This document shows positions 9,060-19,157 of a stretch of 22,420 nucleotides of DNA, piece after piece. A model generated the notes under the pieces. It made no database searches and had not been told where the DNA came from. It saw only the letters and a list, made by a program, of their open reading frames with translations. Position numbers and translations under genes: made by a program. This DNA comes from Gymnopus androsaceus JB14 (Eukaryota > Basidiomycota > Agaricomycetes > Agaricales > Omphalotaceae): positions 1 through 22,420 of the forward strand of contig ML770055.1 of assembly GCA_009733575.1 (NCBI GenBank). The letters are read 5' to 3'. Numbering within the stretch: position 1 is the first letter of the stretch; each line of letters opens with the position of its first letter.

Positions 9060-9162
9060 TACAGTGGCTGCCAAAATTGATGTCACCCCACGTGACCTAC
9101 TGAATGGCTACTGAATAGGCGAATAAATTGGGGGGGTGACATCAATTTTGGCAGCCACTGTA
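9060..9162. mobile_element. 99-bp Tc1/mariner-type miniature element with TA duplications
   Basis: A perfect inverted repeat of 28 bases, starting CAGTGGCTGCC and ending in TCACCCC, occupies 9062-9089 and 9133-9160. Both ends are flanked by TA (9060-9061 and 9161-9162), the target duplication of the Tc1/mariner superfamily, and CAGTGGC is a common start for fungal members. Only 43 bases separate the repeats and no coding is possible, so mobilisation would need a transposase encoded elsewhere. The identical arms suggest recent insertion. Confidence 0.88.
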
Positions 9163-11642: not shown

Positions 11643-12790
11643 ATGTCTGAGATCAGCGACGACAAAGAGAAATCGGATTGGAAGAAACTCACCCTTACCC
11701 CTATAAAGGAGAATGAAGACGGCTTGAAAAACTACAATGAGTTCAGGACAAAATCAACCCTTGAACTCAATGCCGCCGGTTACTGGAAATTCATTGACGG
11801 TCCAGAGTACAATCCTTCTGTGATTCCTGAACTCCAACTCAGCAAACAGGTTGAAGGGATAAATGACCTAGGGGAGAAAGTGACAATCCGAATCCCTGGT
11901 AACAAGATCCTAGTTCAAGCAGCCAAAGAGGAAGCAAAAACCTGGCTCAATGGTGACAAGAAAACACTATCCACCATCATTAAAGCTGTCCCTGTCCAGA
12001 AGCTATATGTTGTCCAGGGATGTACGAGCACCCACACAGCATGGTTTGCCCTGAAGAACGAATATGAACCTGCAAATATTCTCACCGCAATTGCCATAAA
12101 ACAGCAAATTATTGGTAACAGCTGCGATGGAGACAACCCACTGGTCTGGCTTCAAATGCAACTATATGGAAGGCTTCACAATGCAGACCCAAACATGATG
12201 CCTGACTTGGAATTTGCAAAACACCTTGTAGTACTCATGTCAAGCCAAGACTCCTGGAGATACTGTCGAGACGACCTACGGAAGCAGATGAGAGAAGGAG
12301 AAGCGTCCAGGAAACCCTTGACTTCCGGACAGGTCATCTGATAGTTGCAGACTGAAGAAATCAAGAGAGGAATTGCCCCTTTGGTGGCATCTATCAATGC
12401 CATAGTAGCAATAGGAAAGGGTAAAGGAAAGGAACGCGCGGTCGCAGGCGTCTATGCAGCAAACCCCAAATTTGTGGCCAATTCAATTGCTGCTAGCTCC
12501 AAACAACAAATAGGAATGACCAGAAAGGGAAGCCATACCCCTCCAGAAACCATTCCAATTCCAACCTCATCTGCAAGAATATGTATTGCTTGTTCCCAGC
12601 CAGCCACACAAAAGCAGAGTGTTTTGTATATGGTGGAGGTAAAGTCAGCCAGTATCCTCAGAACTTCAGAGGCCAGAGGGACCTACATCTCTCACTGCAA
12701 GCTAGAGCCACGGAAACTGGCTATAGAAAAGGCCAAGGGAGAGAGAGTCGACAACAAGAACCAGTGGGAATGGCAGAGGATCGAGCCAAC
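11643..12790 (+). pseudogene. Copia gag polyprotein with two stops and a frameshift
   Basis: The open frame 11643-12341 (232 residues) is a gag-like protein of the UBN2/copia type: WKFIDG near residue 48, a helical core and an AW..L..EY motif. It is the nucleocapsid part that would package element RNA into particles. The ATG at 11643 follows an A/C-rich leader. Tandem stops TGA-TAG (12339-12344) interrupt the frame, which then continues with QTEEIKRGIAPLV. A CCHC zinc knuckle at about 12575-12640 is split by a frameshift: the first two Cys (CIAC) are in one frame and the His...Cys half (SHTKAECF) in another. Confidence 0.85.
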
Positions 12791-12795
12791 ATGCA

Positions 12796-13497
12796 GTGTC
12801 CGCCAACTATGGACAGGCAACTGAGGAGGAAGTGAACAAAATCTTGGGACAAGTTGAAGATAGCTTTGCATTCATGATTCATGAACACAAAACAGACAAT
12901 AAATATGAAGTCAAAATCAAAGAGGAAGTCCAAATCAATGTGGCTGTGTTGGACATCAATATCCCACAAGACAACTCCATCAACCACAATACAGGTGCCA
13001 CCAGACATATATTTCAAGAAAAGAAACTCTTCCACAACTACACCGAGCTGGAAACACCACTCAACATACACCATTTTGGCTCAAAAGTTAAAACTATCTG
13101 CCGTAGCAATTGGAAAGGGAACAATTGTGTGTTGAAAGCTAAGTTTGGTGGTTCCCACAGGAATTTCTCCCTCTCCAATGTCCTTCACATTCCTTCCGCC
13201 CATTGCAATCTTATATCTGGTTTGAGGATTGATAGAAAGGGGGTCAGTACTCAAACTGGAGACGGCAAGATCACCTATTACAATGGGAAGAACATACCAT
13301 TTGCCCTTGGGTCCATTGTGCGGGACCTATACCAGATGGATGTAACTCCAGTACAAGCACTGGATCCTGATCCAAACACACCATCAACTTCCTCACAATC
13401 AGCAGTGATTGCAGGAATGGTGCCAGACATTACAGCACTGTTTGGTCCAGGTTCTGACTCCGAGGTGGCCAAACGAGTGGGTTTTACCACCATCTAA
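12796..13497 (+). pseudogene. Copia aspartic protease region, catalytic Asp lost
   Basis: A 233-residue open frame holds the retropepsin-type protease domain. The active-site motif, normally D-S/T-G-A, reads NTGATRHIF (about 12988-13014): the catalytic Asp codon has become AAT (Asn). Downstream landmarks of copia proteases remain, such as VLHIPSAHCNLIS near 13180. The protein ends with a Ser/Thr-rich spacer. The loss of Asp alone would abolish polyprotein processing. Confidence 0.8.
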
Positions 13498-13631
13498 TGG
13501 GCCATATAGATGTTAAAGGCCTCAAGTGCACCACAATTGGCCTACTCATCGATGCAGTGGAGGTCAAAAATTGCCGTATTTGCGTGTTGGCCAACATCAA
13601 ACGGCTTCCTTTCCCTCGATGGTCTCATACA
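13488..13631 (+). pseudogene. GAG-pre-integrase HHCC zinc-binding segment, frameshifted
   Basis: Shifted one frame from the protease block, this segment reads HHLMGHIDVKGLK and then CRICVLANIKRLPFP, the His-His...Cys-x2-Cys zinc-binding unit that precedes copia integrases. It ends in TGA at 13632-13634. Another frame change, near the T-run at 13648-13655, is needed to reach the integrase. Confidence 0.75.
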
Positions 13632-13656
13632 TGAGCAGACCGTCCCCTTTTTTTGA

Positions 13657-14559
13657 ATTCATTCTGATATTTGTGGTGCTCTCCCACTTGGTTACAGTCT
13701 ATTTCGCTATTTCATTGTCTTTGTAGATGATCACTTGCATTATATCTGGATTTTCTTCTTGAAATCCAGAGATGATGCAGTGAAATGCTTCAACGAGTTC
13801 CCTCTGGCTGCGGAAAAATACCTTGGATACCCAGTCTCCATCTTGAGGGTGGACAATGCCCCTGAGCTTGTGTCAGGTGCTTTCGAAACTTACTGCAAGA
13901 ACCATGGCATTTCCTATGAAAAACCCATACCCAATGCCCACCAACAGAATGGTGTTGTTGAGCAAACCATTCAAACCATCAAATTTATGCTGCACACTAT
14001 GCTCGTTGACGGAAACCTTTCCCACTGGTTCTGGCCTCTGGCTGCGCAAGCTGGTGTCCATATCAAGAATTGCATACCTCACTCAGCTTTACCTCCGGAG
14101 AAAATGCTCTTTGAGAGCATACTCAAAAAATGCGCAGATTTATCTCATATTCATCCATTTGGTTCACTTGTGACTTTGAGGAAGTCAGAGTCAGACAGCC
14201 TGAATAAAGTTACAGCTTGGGGGGAGGAAGGATGCTTTGTGGGACTCCAAGGGTATCTCATTTACTTTCCCCACTCCCGTACCATTCATGCTCAGCGGGA
14301 TGTTGTATTCCATGGCTTCCCTACCTCCCTGCCAAGCCTACCTCTGTCAGATCTCCTTTGGGATGATATCCCATTCAAACTTGAACATCGTTATCGAGAT
14401 GTGGAAGGGGTAGCGAATGCTTCCCATCTGACTTCCACTTCCCTGCAACCTGAAGTCCACAAGCTGGCAACCAAAGTCCACAAGCTGGCACTCAAAGTCC
14501 ACAAGATGGCAAATCGGATTTGGGAGTTAAAAACTCCTATTCTAAACTCTTATTTCTGA
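13657..14559 (+). pseudogene. Copia integrase core and C-terminal domain
   Basis: This is the longest undamaged module, open for about 300 residues. The catalytic triad of the rve core is visible: Asp in HSDICG (about 13663), Asp in RVDNAPELVSG (about 13850) and Glu in QQNGVVEQTI (about 13945). Landmarks of the copia C-terminal domain follow: HPFGSLVTL, GEEGCFVGLQGY and RDVVFHG. The integrase would join element cDNA to the host genome, but here it lacks an in-frame upstream polyprotein and ends at a TGA (14557-14559) after a 21-bp triplicated stretch. Confidence 0.85.
14453..14515 (+). repeat. Three tandem 21-bp units encoding KVHKLA-type heptads
   Basis: Units at 14453-14473, 14474-14494 and 14495-14515 each start AAGTCCACAAG. 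The length keeps the frame, giving EVHKLAT, KVHKLAL and KVHKMAN in the integrase tail. Confidence 0.8.
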
Positions 14560-14607
14560 CCTGTAATGACAATATGAGAAGACTGCCAGCTCGCTACGTC
14601 ATCAACC

Positions 14608-15251
14608 ATGCAAGCACCTTGGACGAGGGGGGGGTTGGATTCAAACCTACTTGAACACATCCTCAGTACCAACAATGAACTCAAAATTGAATGTGAAGAA
14701 ACAGACTTCCCATCACTTGCCCAATCTTTCATCATCTGCACCAAAGTTGCATATGCTGGTGCAGCACTCACTGAACCCATCAATGATGCTGATGAAAAGG
14801 ACCCAGCTACTGTCCAAGAAGCACAATCATTGATCTACTGGACATATTGGCTGGCCACAATTTACAAAGAACTCGAGTTGTTGAAAGAAAAGGGAGTCTA
14901 CAAGGAGGTGGATGATCTTCCAAAGGGGAGAAAAGCTGTTGGGTCAAAATGGGTGCTTCACATAAAGTGGAACAAGGAAGACCTTATTGCGAGATTCAAA
15001 GCTTGTCTAGTAGCAAAAGGATTCATCCAAGTCCCTGGCCAAGACTTCACATATACATTCGCTTCCGTAGCTTGATGGGAAAAGAGATATACATGCCGAA
15101 ACCTTTGATCGCTGGATCCGGATACTGGAGATTGCAAAAGGGACTCTATGGTCTCAAACAGTCAGGGAGACAATGGTACCTAGAGCTCAACTCAGAACTC
15201 GAGTCTGTTGGATTCAAATGCATGGAATCTGACTGGAGCGTATATGTTTGA
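14608..15251 (+). pseudogene. Copia reverse transcriptase fragment with core deletion
   Basis: The first frame (14608-15075) carries the RT N-terminal region: GVYKEVDDLPKGRKAVGSKW, a changed FK/RLVAKG motif (FKACLVAKGFIQVPG) and FTYTFASVA. The usual stretch leading to the first catalytic Asp (DVKTAFLNG) is then missing. The reading resumes in another frame at about 15072 with MGKEIYMPKP, then WRLQKGLYGLKQSGRQWYL, and stops at 15249-15251 after SDWSVYV. The catalytic YVDD is not present and RNase H is absent, so it cannot encode an active enzyme. Confidence 0.8.
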
Positions 15252-15309
15252 ATGGTGGGAACTGGACATTCGTACATAACAATGAGCGTTGCATCAGCAA
15301 AAATGGTCT

Positions 15310-16256
15310 GGGCCTGGGATAGCCTATAGGTTAGACTAATATAACCTGAGCAACCTGGGTGACTTAGGCCACCTAGGAATATGCCCAAATCCTGATATCA
15401 CTTGAGAGAGACTTAGGCTACCTAGGAATATACACAAATCCTGATATCACTTGAGAGAGACTTAGGCTACCTAGGAATATACACAAATCCTGATATCACC
15501 AGAGGGAGCCTCCTTGCAGCCTGAGCATAACCTGAGCACAGCCTGAGTACAACCTGAGGGAACCTGGGGAAGCCTGGAGAAGCCTGAGGAAGCCTGGGAC
15601 AGCCTGAGATTTATCTAGAACTAGGATTACAAGCTAAATAGATTCAATAAACTAGTACATTGAATTATAGAGTGTATAAATATCATTAAAAGAACAGTAG
15701 ACACCCCAATTATTCGAATTTATCAACATATAATTGCGTAAAATAAGCGCCCAAATAAGCGCCAAACCACGTGGGCACCTGTAGACTGCGTACAATTAAA
15801 AGTCTGTTGATGGGGTCAAATCAGATTCATCATGAAGTAACAGTTAACTTGATAAATATGTTAGTCTACTTGAACTTGAGTTAAAAATACTTAAGTGAGG
15901 TGTTCCAAGTCATAATTTAAGGCCAGTGAAACATTAATGAGTCTCAAAAAATAAGTTCACTTTGAAATAAATCAAAAATCCATGAGGTTAATAAGATAAT
16001 AAGGTTTAAGTAATATAAATGTGGAGATTGAGCAAATAGATACAGCTGAATAAATAAAGTATGAGAATTATTTTTTGCATTGTATAACTCAGCAGAAGTA
16101 TCCCTAGGTTACCTCAAGTTGCCTCAGGCTTCCCAGGCTTCCTCAGGCTCCCTCAGGTTCCCTCAGGCTTCCTCAGGATTCCTTCAAGAAGCCCAGGAAT
16201 AAGGGGGTGGACTTATGAAAGCCTGGGAGACCTAGGTGTCCTGGGTGTTGATGCGA
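15310..16256. repeat. Inverted repeat with CCTGAGG-rich arms around an AT-rich core
   Basis: The left arm (about 15320-15620) is built of AACCTGAG/AGCCTGAGG/AACCTGGG sub-units. The right arm (about 16100-16256) holds the same sub-units in inverted form (CCTCAGGCTTCCCAGG). The core (15640-16090) is AT-rich with no gene. This looks like a fold-back element that interrupts or replaces the 3' end of the copia RT. Related sub-units recur at 17238-17290. Confidence 0.6.
15361..15499 (+). repeat. Tandem repeat, 49-bp period, 2.8 copies
   Basis: Units begin at 15361, 15410 and 15459. Each starts GACTTAGGC.ACCTAGGAAT and ends in CTGATATCACTTGAGAGA; the third copy breaks off after GATATCAC. Copies 2 and 3 are identical where they overlap; copy 1 differs at three positions. 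Confidence 0.9.
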
Positions 16257-16893
16257 CTGCCGTGCATATATGCATCAATATATGCGTCGATATCGTCTCG
16301 GGTACCGCTAAAAAGGTACTCCACAGCAAGAGACAAGCAATGTCTATAACATTTGCATTATCCAAGTGCTTTGCATTGAAACGGGAGTATAAACGGGCCT
16401 CGAGATTCGGCTTAGAGAGCCTAAGATCCATTCACGGCGGTCAAAGCGTAATTTATTGATGGCATCAAACGAGACTTGGGGAGTCGAAATGGCGTGTCCT
16501 GGAGTTGTTTCAAGCCAGGGAGATCTGACGGAAGTGCAGACGAGTCCGACGGAACGTTAGGAAGGCAGGGTGGACGTTGTTTTAGCCGGAAAACGGAGGA
16601 ACAAGAAGATCCGAGGCAGGGAAAGCATTTAGGCCGAAATAGGAAAGATAGGATAAACGGAACCTTTTTACAGCCTTCAGGGCATCGGAAACGGAGCGAA
16701 AGGGACCCGAGGGATGAAACAGGGATGACTGCGGATAGGCAGGAAGGTTAGGAAGGATGGCAGGACAAGGACGGAGTTTTTGGTATAAGAAGGGGAGGAA
16801 AACGTCGAAATGGAGCAGGTTGCAGCACCCCCATCGCTACAAGCCTCGTTGTGTTTTGTACATATTGTTTGTGTGCTTATTGTTGTATTGTCC
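16257..16893. other. Purine-rich stretch, no convincing gene
   Basis: From about 16480 to 16830 the plus strand is strongly A/G-rich. A 91-residue basic frame (16476-16751) follows from that composition and resembles no family. A hairpin GCATATAT...ATATATGC lies at 16263-16284. The rest shows nothing I can name. Confidence 0.4.
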
Positions 16894-17122
16894 ATCGCGT
16901 GTTAGCGATTTATTTGCCTTTTGTGGCAGTTGTGTGCAAGCAACTGGCCTTTTATTGTGTTCAGGCAATTGTGTGCAAGCAATTGGCCTTCTTGTGTTTT
17001 GGCATCAGTGTGTAAGCTGTTGGCCTTATTGTATCGCGTGTTAGCGATTTGTTACTTGTACTATTGCGTGTTAGCAATAGTTGTGTGTTTTGACTTGTCT
17101 CATAAACAGTTTTTATACTGTT
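16894..17122. repeat. First block of stem-loops, seven hairpins in two main loop classes
   Basis: Hairpins at 16894-16909, 17033-17048 and 17061-17080 share the loop GTGTTA; their stems are ATCGC, ATCGC and CTATTGC, each perfectly paired. Hairpins at 16927-16946, 16966-16985 and 17003-17022 share the loop TGTGCAAG (TGTGTAAG in the third); their stems are CAGTTG, CAATTG and CATCAG, the last with one mismatch. A seventh at 17105-17122 has stem AACAGT. Changes on one arm are matched by the compensating change on the other, so pairing rather than sequence is kept. The surrounding bases are T/G-rich. Confidence 0.8.
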
Positions 17123-17237
17123 CTACTACCTACTCTACCTACCCACATTCCACTGTCTAAACAGCCCCCTGAACTTAGTGTTTTGGGTTGGTTTTGTGTT
17201 TTCATTCCATCCCACTTCGCATCAGTGTCCTGGGTGT

Positions 17238-18938
17238 CCTAGGAGACCTAGGCAGTCCTGAGGTATCCTCAGGTCATCCAAGGCCCAGACCATTTCTGCT
17301 GATGAGGTGTGGCTTCAGCTACACCCATATCACTATTTGGGTTAACCCAAACCAATATTTTTCTACAGAAATGTGCAGAAGCACAAGCTGCAAGCCAATG
17401 GGTTCTCCGTGAACTTCGACAGTTCACGGACACATTAGTGAAAGCTAATATGCCAGGATTTAATCCTGGTAGTTGCAATGAACCGGATGTAAAATCTACA
17501 TCCATGGTGACTGTAACATCTTGTCATACAGATTGGGTATGTATTCATACCCAGAACCTGGTGTTTTGTTCAAACAAAACACATCCCCTGAACAGATTCA
17601 TGCTAGGATTGACTCAGGAAGACAATCTCCTTGCGGAGATGATCCACACGAGAAAATCAGAGATACTGATAGAGACTGATGGGCTGACATTGCTCAGACA
17701 GGCCTAAGGCCTTCCTGTCATCCCCGCTCATCTGACAGTAAAATTTCACTGCCAGATGTCTCTCTGACACTTCCTGTGTCCTCATCCCCCCTCCCACCCT
17801 GGTTCCTCCCCCTTGCATTGATCTGCATCCCAAATTGATTCAAGAGGAGAGGTTCACCCCTCGGAAGGCTATGTCTTCCAAATTGACAGTGGTACACAGT
17901 ACCACTGTAAATTCATGTTTTGGCACAACTAGGCCCTTGAAAAGGGACTGGATGGACCAAGTCACTATCCAGCGACTCCATGACCAAGATCTCCAAGAAA
18001 TTGGAGATTCACAATTCCCTGACCAGGGAATTCTTTTTAATATTGATGGGTATCCCATTGATAGACTCCTGGACAGTGGGAAAGACCCACCGTCCAGAAA
18101 TTGTGGGGGGCAAATTGGTTGTAAACTATGATGGATTTCTGAAACTCACGGAGCAAGCTCAAAATGTGTACAACATTCACAAGCAAGCTTCTTTTCTCTT
18201 CGAGAGAGGGAGGGCCAGTGTAGAAATACACTAGCTCACTCTACATCTCAAGTACATGGGATTAAAAATCCCTCAAAACATGATCCGCCAGAGGATTGGG
18301 TACGGTACATCCAGATGTACCCCAACCAATGTCCTACTGGCATAAAGTATGATCACAATGATCATACTCTTACCTGTAATGTACAGGGATGGTTACTAGT
18401 AAGTAACCATGCCCCAGTTATAGCAGCGGGGACTCCCAAGGTGAAGCAGCATTGCTTCACCTTACAAACAGCGGAGTTGTTCACAACTCTGGGACTTTAT
18501 GCATCCATTACTGGATGTGACGAGACAAATACTGTCTCAAATATTTCAACATCACCATATAGAGTACAGGTGACATTGATAATGCTACATTGAATGATGT
18601 AGCCTTGTTTTACGCCTCCCAAGGCATTACCATTGAAATGGGAAAAGACATAACTGTCTTTGCCCTTCAGTGGTTGACTATGTTCCGTACAATGGACCCT
18701 AGTCTTCAATGTGAGTTACGTGCAACACGTAACCATGGTTCCTCATTCCTGTTTCTGAATACATGGCACGCTACCATGCATTTGAAATCCCAGGATATAT
18801 TCATAACACGCTATTGTGAATATGGTCCCAACTTCAACTATCAAGTTGAAGTTCTCACAAATAAGCTCCAGCTGGGTTGACACGCTATCAAACCAGTTGG
18901 GGGCCCCCTTCCTCTTCGATTGAACTGTAGGCTCAATC
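17238..18938. repeat. Dense array of about 45 short stem-loops
   Basis: Almost every 25-50 bases there is a short perfect or near-perfect inverted repeat with a 2-8 base loop. Perfect stems of ten or more: 17406-17430, 17561-17582, 17886-17908, 18346-18368, 18438-18463 (11 pairs) and 18830-18853. Stems of seven to nine include 17257, 17336, 17453, 17485, 17534, 17989, 18013, 18304, 18389, 18474, 18584, 18644 and 18715 (start positions). Many five- and six-pair ones lie between. Stem sequences are unrelated to each other. The only gap of note is the C-rich piece 17781-17860. Open frames of about 100-130 residues run through it on the plus strand (17309-17707, 17835-18131, 18590-18880), but none resembles a known family. 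Confidence 0.85.
18757..18896. repeat. Three hairpins sharing the loop CACGCTA
   Basis: Loops at 18766-18772, 18807-18813 and 18881-18887 are all CACGCTA. The stems are AATACATGG (8 of 9 paired), ATTCATAA (7 of 8) and CTGGGTTGA (8 of 9), which are unrelated. This is the clearest case in the array of a constant loop on changing stems. Confidence 0.8.
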
Positions 18939-18940
18939 TG

Positions 18941-18951
18941 GCTGGGGAGGG
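18941..18951 (+). promoter_or_regulatory. Candidate polypurine tract before the LTR
   Basis: GCTGGGGAGGG ends immediately before TGTAACG. A G-rich purine run directly before a TG-starting repeat is where plus-strand synthesis begins in LTR retroelements. The call depends on the LTR call next to it. Confidence 0.5.
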
Positions 18952-19157
18952 TGTAACGTCCCCGATCCCTGATTGGCAGGACCTCAGTCTTTACAGGTGG
19001 CAGCACATTCCCATGCCTGCCAATAATCTATATTATAATTATTATATAGGAGAATATCTTAGCTTTTAACCATCACCTTGTGAGTATACCTGAATAAATC
19101 CAGTAGTACTCATTGGCATGATATTAAGGCTCTAGGCTCCACTTAGGAGCCATTACA
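18952..19157 (+). mobile_element. Candidate 206-bp LTR
   Basis: The segment starts TGTAA and ends TTACA, giving the TG...CA ends and 5-bp inverted termini of LTRs, and follows a polypurine tract. It is itself structured: ATTGGCAGG at 18972-18980 pairs with 19016-19024, a 22-bp near-palindrome lies at 19028-19049, and GGCTCC pairs with GGAGCC at 19135-19151. No second copy is seen in the window, so either it is the 3' LTR of the hairpin-array element with the 5' copy lost, or the boundaries are coincidental. Confidence 0.5.

Follow-up and report, generated by a model that had tools for sequence, protein, structure and literature searches.

Predicted chains of short hairpins along a Ty3/Gypsy lineage and a pol-less LTR retrotransposon of Gymnopus androsaceus

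A hairpin array in a truncated retrotransposon copy

The DNA analyzed here (the window) is a stretch of 22,420 nucleotides from contig ML770055.1 of Gymnopus androsaceus JB14, and it contains a run of consecutive short hairpins (Table 1). A sequence-only reading had placed this run at 16894-18938 and reported many more stems than random sequence would give. Counting perfect Watson-Crick stems with loops of 0-8 bases, we found 20 stems of at least 7 bp and six of at least 10 bp in this interval; 200 shuffles that preserve dinucleotides averaged 1.29 and 0.035, with maxima of 5 and 1. All six of the long stems named in the reading were recovered, at 17406, 17561, 17886, 18346 and 18830 (10 bp each) and at 18438 (11 bp), and the excess was matched neither by the shuffles nor by other stretches of the window. 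Stem density peaks at 17-19 kb of the window, with 10 stems in each kilobase and five in the next-best one. Positions 1-1000 hold five perfect stems of at least 7 bp, one of them of at least 10 bp, well above the remaining window outside the array.

The left boundary of the interval had to be moved. Positions 16894-17304 belong to two other repeats and have a local-fold z score of only -3.1, and the array proper starts after them. Its own z score is -14.8 (-12.7 for the reverse complement), and the local fold pairs 63% of its bases; the window's copia element gave +0.8 and -1.2, and three other window stretches gave +3.0, -0.4 and +0.6. A dispersed repeat of about 970 bp covers the greater part of the original interval's first 411 bases; it has a 99% identical copy at C46:312448-313423 and others at 92-94%, and it is nested inside an inverted-repeat element.

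Table 1. Features at the hairpin locus, in window coordinates.
Feature	Position	Strand	Evidence
Inverted-repeat element, foreign to the array element	15292..17304 (15292-16248 + 17225-17304)		Inverted repeat; copies without the insert
Dispersed repeat of about 970 bp, foreign to the element	16249..17224		Copies elsewhere in the genome
5'-truncated copy of a pol-less LTR retrotransposon (hairpin array and 3' LTR)	17305..19157	+	Alignment of other loci
Hairpin array, 3' part of the element interior	17305..18951	+	18 perfect stems of at least 7 bp; z score; MFED 38.7%
132-aa remnant of the element's open frame	17309..17707	+	ORF list; frame longer in full copies
Hairpin just 5' of the polypurine tract	18918..18938	+	Sequence; common to the pol-bearing C164 element
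Polypurine tract GGCTGGGGAGGG	18940..18951	+	Directly before the LTR start; same block in C164
3' LTR, 206 bp, TGTAAC...TTACA	18952..19157	+	Repeats in the genome; second LTR in full copies

Several smaller features lie to the left of the array. About five small hairpins at 16894-17110, in the 970-bp repeat beside it, have a similar loop (GTGTGCAAG, GTGTTAG) and different stems, the reverse of the array's pattern. A 49-bp unit occurs in three tandem copies at 15361-15507, within the inverted-repeat element. The remains of the copia-type LTR retrotransposon used as a control, at 11643-15251, have open frames that look gag-, integrase- and RT-like by eye and no hairpin excess. At 9060-9162 there is a perfect 30-bp inverted repeat with its arms 43 bp apart, perhaps a small dispersed inverted-repeat element; a 92% identical copy lies near another hairpin element (L003:1177-1280).

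The element and its pol-bearing relatives

Searching the Gymnopus androsaceus genome (83.3 Mb, 934 contigs) with the element gave at least 63 matches (40 scored of 107 candidates), and searching with the LTR alone gave at least 40 (40 scored of 123 candidates). Nearly all of 29 other loci align to the truncated copy as delimited in Table 1, with a common 3' end at about 19157; leftward of 17305 no alignment of the element to these genome loci extends, and the window copy starts abruptly there. Full copies have paired LTRs of about 206 bp with TG...CA ends, of which the window copy keeps the 3' one alone, and three of the four copies examined are flanked by 5-bp target-site duplications (CCATG, TGTAG and AAGAA), the fourth abutting N. 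In C23, C46 and C9 a full copy measures about 3.6 kb, of which about 3.2 kb lie between the LTRs; for those in C362, C301, C441 and C421 the LTR spacing points to about 3.8 kb, and the copy in C56 is longer. Judged from these sequence features, the array forms the 3' portion of an LTR retrotransposon that lacks pol, measures about 3.6-3.8 kb and is repeated across the genome, and the place of GGCTGGGGAGGG suggests that it serves as the primer for plus-strand DNA. The identity as an LTR retrotransposon, with full copies and coding relatives built alike, lay beyond what could be read from the window alone.

The full copies have stop-to-stop frames of 510, 369 and 535 aa. Five protein relatives of the element frame are all hypothetical proteins of Gymnopus androsaceus JB14, no Pfam domain was found above the cut-off in the frames, and a PDB sequence comparison of the one frame tried gave no match. 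One frame stretch had a WW-like look, which the Pfam search did not support. Local-fold z scores are -19.8 and -15.9 for the two halves of the C46 copy and -15.9 and -15.0 for those of the C23 copy, and in full copies the upstream half is no less structured than what the window retains. The region 5' of the C46 copy (L034:3000-4600) is hairpin-rich too (z = -5.7) and may hold another structured repeat.

A domain of the pol-less frame is 47% identical, ungapped over 159 residues, to a 795-aa ORF in C283 and 43% identical over 160 residues to an 810-aa ORF in C164. The C164 locus holds an element with Pfam matches to RVT_1, RT_RNaseH, Integrase_H2C2 and rve, that is, RT, RNase H and integrase in Ty3/Gypsy order, and the RT of this lineage is related to that of Ty3. 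Its gag carries a zinc knuckle, its pol frames are interrupted by stops, a 183-bp match between its two LTR copies contains one difference, and its protease region, which had no Pfam match, is named by position only. A 96-aa stretch after the integrase that looked chromodomain-like by eye, in the place where a chromovirus would carry its chromodomain, had no Pfam match. We had considered a host gene captured by the pol-less element and dropped this idea because the related ORF in C164 follows RNase H and integrase as a third ORF, with RT and the zinc knuckle upstream. This 810-aa ORF (L048:260-2689) contains a coiled coil, matches no Pfam family above the cut-off, and has relatives in this genome and in two other sources; the position after integrase is where retroviruses carry env.

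The C164 element and the pol-less element have in common the polypurine tract block, the LTR start TGTAACGCCCCC and the block CTTTTTTGA, which comes after the 5' LTR in both, where LTR retrotransposons have a tRNA primer-binding site. Their LTR bodies are unlike, and the frame of the pol-less element shows weak similarity to the N-terminal part of the C164 gag (best pairwise E 3.7e-5). Because of the common blocks and the ORF similarity, the C164 element is likely the kind of autonomous partner that the pol-less element has, and may mobilize it. RT relatives near 60% identity occur in other basidiomycetes (among 120 listed of 447 proteins, proteins only), and no relatives were confirmed in viral and prokaryote collections.

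Folding excess along gag-pol and in controls

Hairpins fill gag, RT, RNase H, integrase and the third ORF of the C164 lineage. Nine coding pieces of C164 gave z scores of -6.2 to -12.3 against dinucleotide shuffles, and codon-preserving shuffles gave -5.0 to -12.9 in each of the six pieces to which they were applied. Beyond the ORFs on the 3' side, a 1.4-kb stretch that begins with about 120 bases of LTR gave -0.4. RT pieces of C164 and two close relatives reached -13.3, -14.4 and -16.3, those of two sister lineages (57 and 53% RT identity) reached -7.2 and -5.8, and ten other Gypsy elements ranged from -0.7 to -4.4. Minus strands have z scores similar to those of the plus strands.

The folding excess was also measured as MFED in 350-nt fragments. 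It is 34.1% for gag-PR-RT, 39.4% for RH-INT and 19.0% for the third ORF of C164, 33.4% for C283, 40.5 and 38.6% for the RT of C32 and C17, and 45.4 and 51.3% for two pol-less copies. The sister lineages have 9.0 and 12.9%, the ten outgroup Gypsy elements -0.7 to 15.1% (three above 12%), the copia element 2.9%, other window parts 3.6 and 0.1%, and three host chaperonin loci -0.9, 0.6 and -1.8%; phage MS2 has 29.7%. On these predictions the extreme hairpin form is bound to a single one of the Gypsy lineages sampled.

That the hairpins arise by chance, from base composition or through an artefact of sequencing or assembly has a practically negligible probability: dinucleotide and codon shuffles, other window regions, the copia element, three host loci and ten other Gypsy elements are without comparable excess, which led us to reject chance and composition, and the many copies lie on different contigs.

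In three unrelated Gypsy elements (L065, L067 and L063) the MFED is 12-15%, as in coronaviruses, so that a moderate excess of folding may extend to more retrotransposons of the Gymnopus androsaceus genome.

Probable selection on stems

The stems had been described as unrelated to one another, which is right for the part of the element in the window; in full copies the upstream half contains repeats, mostly 171-180 bp long, with related hairpins that covary. We kept 63 of 66 repeat units, dropping three misfits, and analyzed the 12 units that are less than 90% alike. At a mean identity of 65%, 441 of 480 cells among these units are paired. A Watson-Crick double change was found in 17 of 41 pairs, compared with 1-4 when the partner column was slid by 1-3 positions; the structure prediction used this very alignment, which puts the slid versions at a disadvantage. 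Pairing kept at this divergence supports selection on a structured nucleic acid, one of the two readings offered from sequence being a highly structured RNA. Covariation among young copies (30 double-change pairs, 3-11 when slid) was set aside as evidence because it is mostly independent CpG decay, with CpG sites decaying in each arm independently and without repair. Compensatory changes in RT copies were too few to use, with, for example, one and two non-CpG Watson-Crick doubles for C164-C17 and the reverse and 0-2 when slid.

Among 30 pol-less copies, variants seen once fall on stems and unpaired bases alike. Transversions found in at least two copies are depleted in stems. When the window copy serves as reference, the ratio of shared to single transversions is 10/78 in stems and 23/51 at unpaired bases (p = 0.0029), after removal of sites where the reference base is not the majority one (38-100 per run) and of sites with fewer than 15 copies. 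The depletion has p < 0.05 for six of seven reference copies and p = 0.058 for the seventh; shared transitions in the same 30 copies show no depletion in stems. Since shared transversions are depleted and single ones are not, the pattern points to selection. Shared variants in the 3' frame of the pol-less element fall on the three codon positions as 48/44/56, and pairing is therefore kept in a part of the element where coding constraint is not visible.

Synonymous differences in RT were compared between C164 and C17, the most distant of its close relatives. They occur at 18 of 102 sites in arms, 103 of 324 elsewhere and 17 of 30 in loops (arms vs elsewhere, p = 0.0056), and with C17 as reference at 19 of 93 in arms and 108 of 335 elsewhere (p = 0.029), counts in which protein constraint and stems are not fully separated. 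Two further comparisons with C17 agree (C32, 13/98 in arms vs 107/323 elsewhere; C238, 16/95 vs 111/324), arm conservation is weak in C87-C164 (7/111 vs 38/358), and it is absent in C164-C219 (11/58 vs 40/224) and C510-C164 (10/79 vs 39/368). Stem synonymous sites thus differ about half as often as others in the oldest RT comparison, and this result and the depletion of shared transversions both agree with selection on structure. Taking the persistence of pairing together with the shared-transversion depletion, we consider the stems likely to be under selection.

Which molecule such selection would act on is less directly visible. RNA selection would predict that G-U pairs are favoured over A-C, and they are not; we withdrew this as an argument against RNA selection when the strict count of G-U to A-C in MS2 came out at 3:3, as a test that gives this result for MS2 lacks power. 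Selection on DNA, with hairpins or cruciforms acting in single-stranded cDNA or in the integrated copy, would fit the missing G-U preference and the equal folding of both strands. Against it, arms decay independently at CpG after insertion, without repair, and single variants strike stems and unpaired bases alike, so that nothing keeps the hairpins in the integrated copy (cDNA aside); we regard this explanation as very improbable.

Loop inversions and template switching

The RT copy C76 has two hairpins in which the loop is swapped for its own reverse complement. Scanning for inverted loops returned 5 of 88 unique loops in RT copies, all from this pair of sites, and for the pol-less loci 28 of 587, a count that includes reciprocal matches and some in flanks or simple repeats and comes by eye to about five sites within the element. 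Reversed-loop controls gave 0 of 79 (RT) and 0 of 510 (pol-less), and complemented-loop controls gave 0 of 99 and 3 of 616, all three at loops whose complement equals the reverse complement. By these sequence comparisons the inverted loops are the trace of switching between hairpin arms.

The sequence-only reading had also offered template switching that writes one arm as the complement of the other. The switching finds support in the loops inverted between copies, and the rewriting of one arm does not: no asymmetry in arm conservation was seen relative to C78, C141, C66 or C539 (p = 0.83, 0.40, 0.45 and 0.97), which represent two sister and two more distant lineages.

Template switching could also account for the hairpins as a mutational drive that has no function, if the RT of this lineage switches template in short inverted repeats and copies one arm onto its partner, with palindromes growing and becoming perfect wherever the protein tolerates them. 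The loop inversions with their clean controls speak for such a drive, as do the equal folding of both strands, perfect stems of at least 7 bp that are 2.7-6.9 times denser per kilobase than in MS2 at equal folding energy, and the fact that the pol-less element, which is less bound by protein, is the most structured. The lack of arm asymmetry tells against it, and stems diverge less both in shared transversions and at C164-C17 synonymous sites, a slowing that arm copying by itself should not produce. Drive alone is therefore insufficient, and we think it rather unlikely as the full explanation.

A possible role in shielding the RNA

The reading that we hold somewhat probable, on predicted folds, is that the interior hairpins of the pol-less element and its likely partner are maintained by selection and shield the RNA. 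The transcript would fold into consecutive short hairpins in the cell, and fast local folding would stop sense and antisense transcripts from annealing. The folded RNA would then be hidden from Argonaute/RdRP silencing and from nucleases; Argonaute and RdRP genes are present in Gymnopus androsaceus. During RNA or cDNA copying the polymerase would now and then switch between hairpin arms and flip loops, and such switching may help to perfect stems, with selection then keeping the result. Shielding as the function is argued by analogy, and on that footing is the most likely one. A bolder form of the proposal, which we advance tentatively, is that a Ty3/Gypsy clade turned its whole genome, coding sequence included, into a string of short, near-perfect hairpins by a ratchet, in which arm switching supplies and perfects the stems and flips the loops, and selection against long duplexes keeps the stems.

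The main functional rival to shielding, packaging or compaction, would fit the same data. RNA phages use hairpins as many weak sites for packing, and the hairpins here could likewise help the RNA to pack in virus-like particles or give many weak binding sites for Gag. Folding energy per length and paired fraction equal those of MS2, the C164 gag carries its zinc knuckle, and the pol-less element, which needs the Gag of another element, is the most structured. On the other side, there is no conserved hairpin motif or loop, the positions and sequences of hairpins vary between relatives, and Ty1 and Ty3, according to PMC11381356, package with a mosaic structure. We judge packaging to be unlikely.

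Two further identities for the array can be set aside. Dicer or miRNA precursors have stems of about 20 bp or more, and the longest perfect stem in the window array is 11 bp; with stems of at most 11-12 bp, the Dicer substrate mentioned in the sequence-only reading is unlikely. A known structured RNA family was dropped as well, since three Rfam matches were all under the gathering score.

Comparison with known systems

In the literature searched, we found no account of a retrotransposon with hairpin structure along its whole genome. The nearest parallel is genome-scale ordered RNA structure (GORS), which is described in RNA viruses and tied to persistence, its purpose still being debated. We find excess folding energy along the whole genome in the C164 lineage and the pol-less element. 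GORS is further marked by a degree of folding that relatives keep while the bases that pair change; here, in one domain compared across six sequences, some hairpins sit at the same codons with other letters and others are shifted, and the degree of folding falls in the sister lineages. Many consecutive stem-loops along coding sequence, in excess over dinucleotide shuffles, also correspond to GORS as defined in PMC7642675. The virus survey in the same source gives an MFED of 7.5-10.7% for HCV, about 15% for SARS-CoV-2 and 23.4% at the highest, whereas the values here are 34-51% in most parts and 19% in the third ORF, at the same fragment length and with shuffling that is similar and not identical. 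The predicted hairpin density of the pol-less element and of the genes of its likely partner thus exceeds those published values for structured RNA viruses. The present case also differs in being a retrotransposon and not a positive-strand RNA virus, in its short and perfect stems, and in loops inverted between copies; the hairpin lineage works like GORS without being a viral member of it.

Phage MS2 has the same folding energy, -32.2 per 100 nt in both, and a similar paired fraction (0.60 and 0.58), but only 1.96 perfect stems of at least 7 bp per kilobase, compared with 5.3-13.6 in five stretches here. Small inversions in hairpin loops are known from chloroplast DNA, where a loop between inverted repeats is likewise flipped between relatives; here they occur in a family of nuclear retrotransposons whose hairpins extend over the entire element. 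LARD and TRIM are non-autonomous LTR elements, and the pol-less element resembles them in having LTRs, a polypurine tract and target duplications without pol; it differs in its gag-related and third-ORF-related open frames and in predicted structure along its entire interior. Ty1, Ty3 and HIV-1 are LTR retroelements too, and their genomic RNAs are mosaics, stably structured over up to 30% (Ty1, Ty3) and about 40% (HIV-1) according to PMC11381356, whereas every gag-pol piece tested here has a folding excess.

If the proposal is right, genome-scale ordered RNA structure exists outside RNA viruses, at levels above the published viral values, and an anti-silencing strategy would be written in sequence and not in protein. 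Synonymous sites of a transposon would be under structural constraint; the loop inversions themselves offer a readable record of template switching. The structured lineage shares its genome and its RNAi-equipped host with Gypsy lineages of lower structure and with a pol-less derivative whose 3' part keeps its pairing where coding constraint is not visible any more, and the purpose of RNA structure, debated for GORS in viruses, can therefore be tested here by comparison within one genome.
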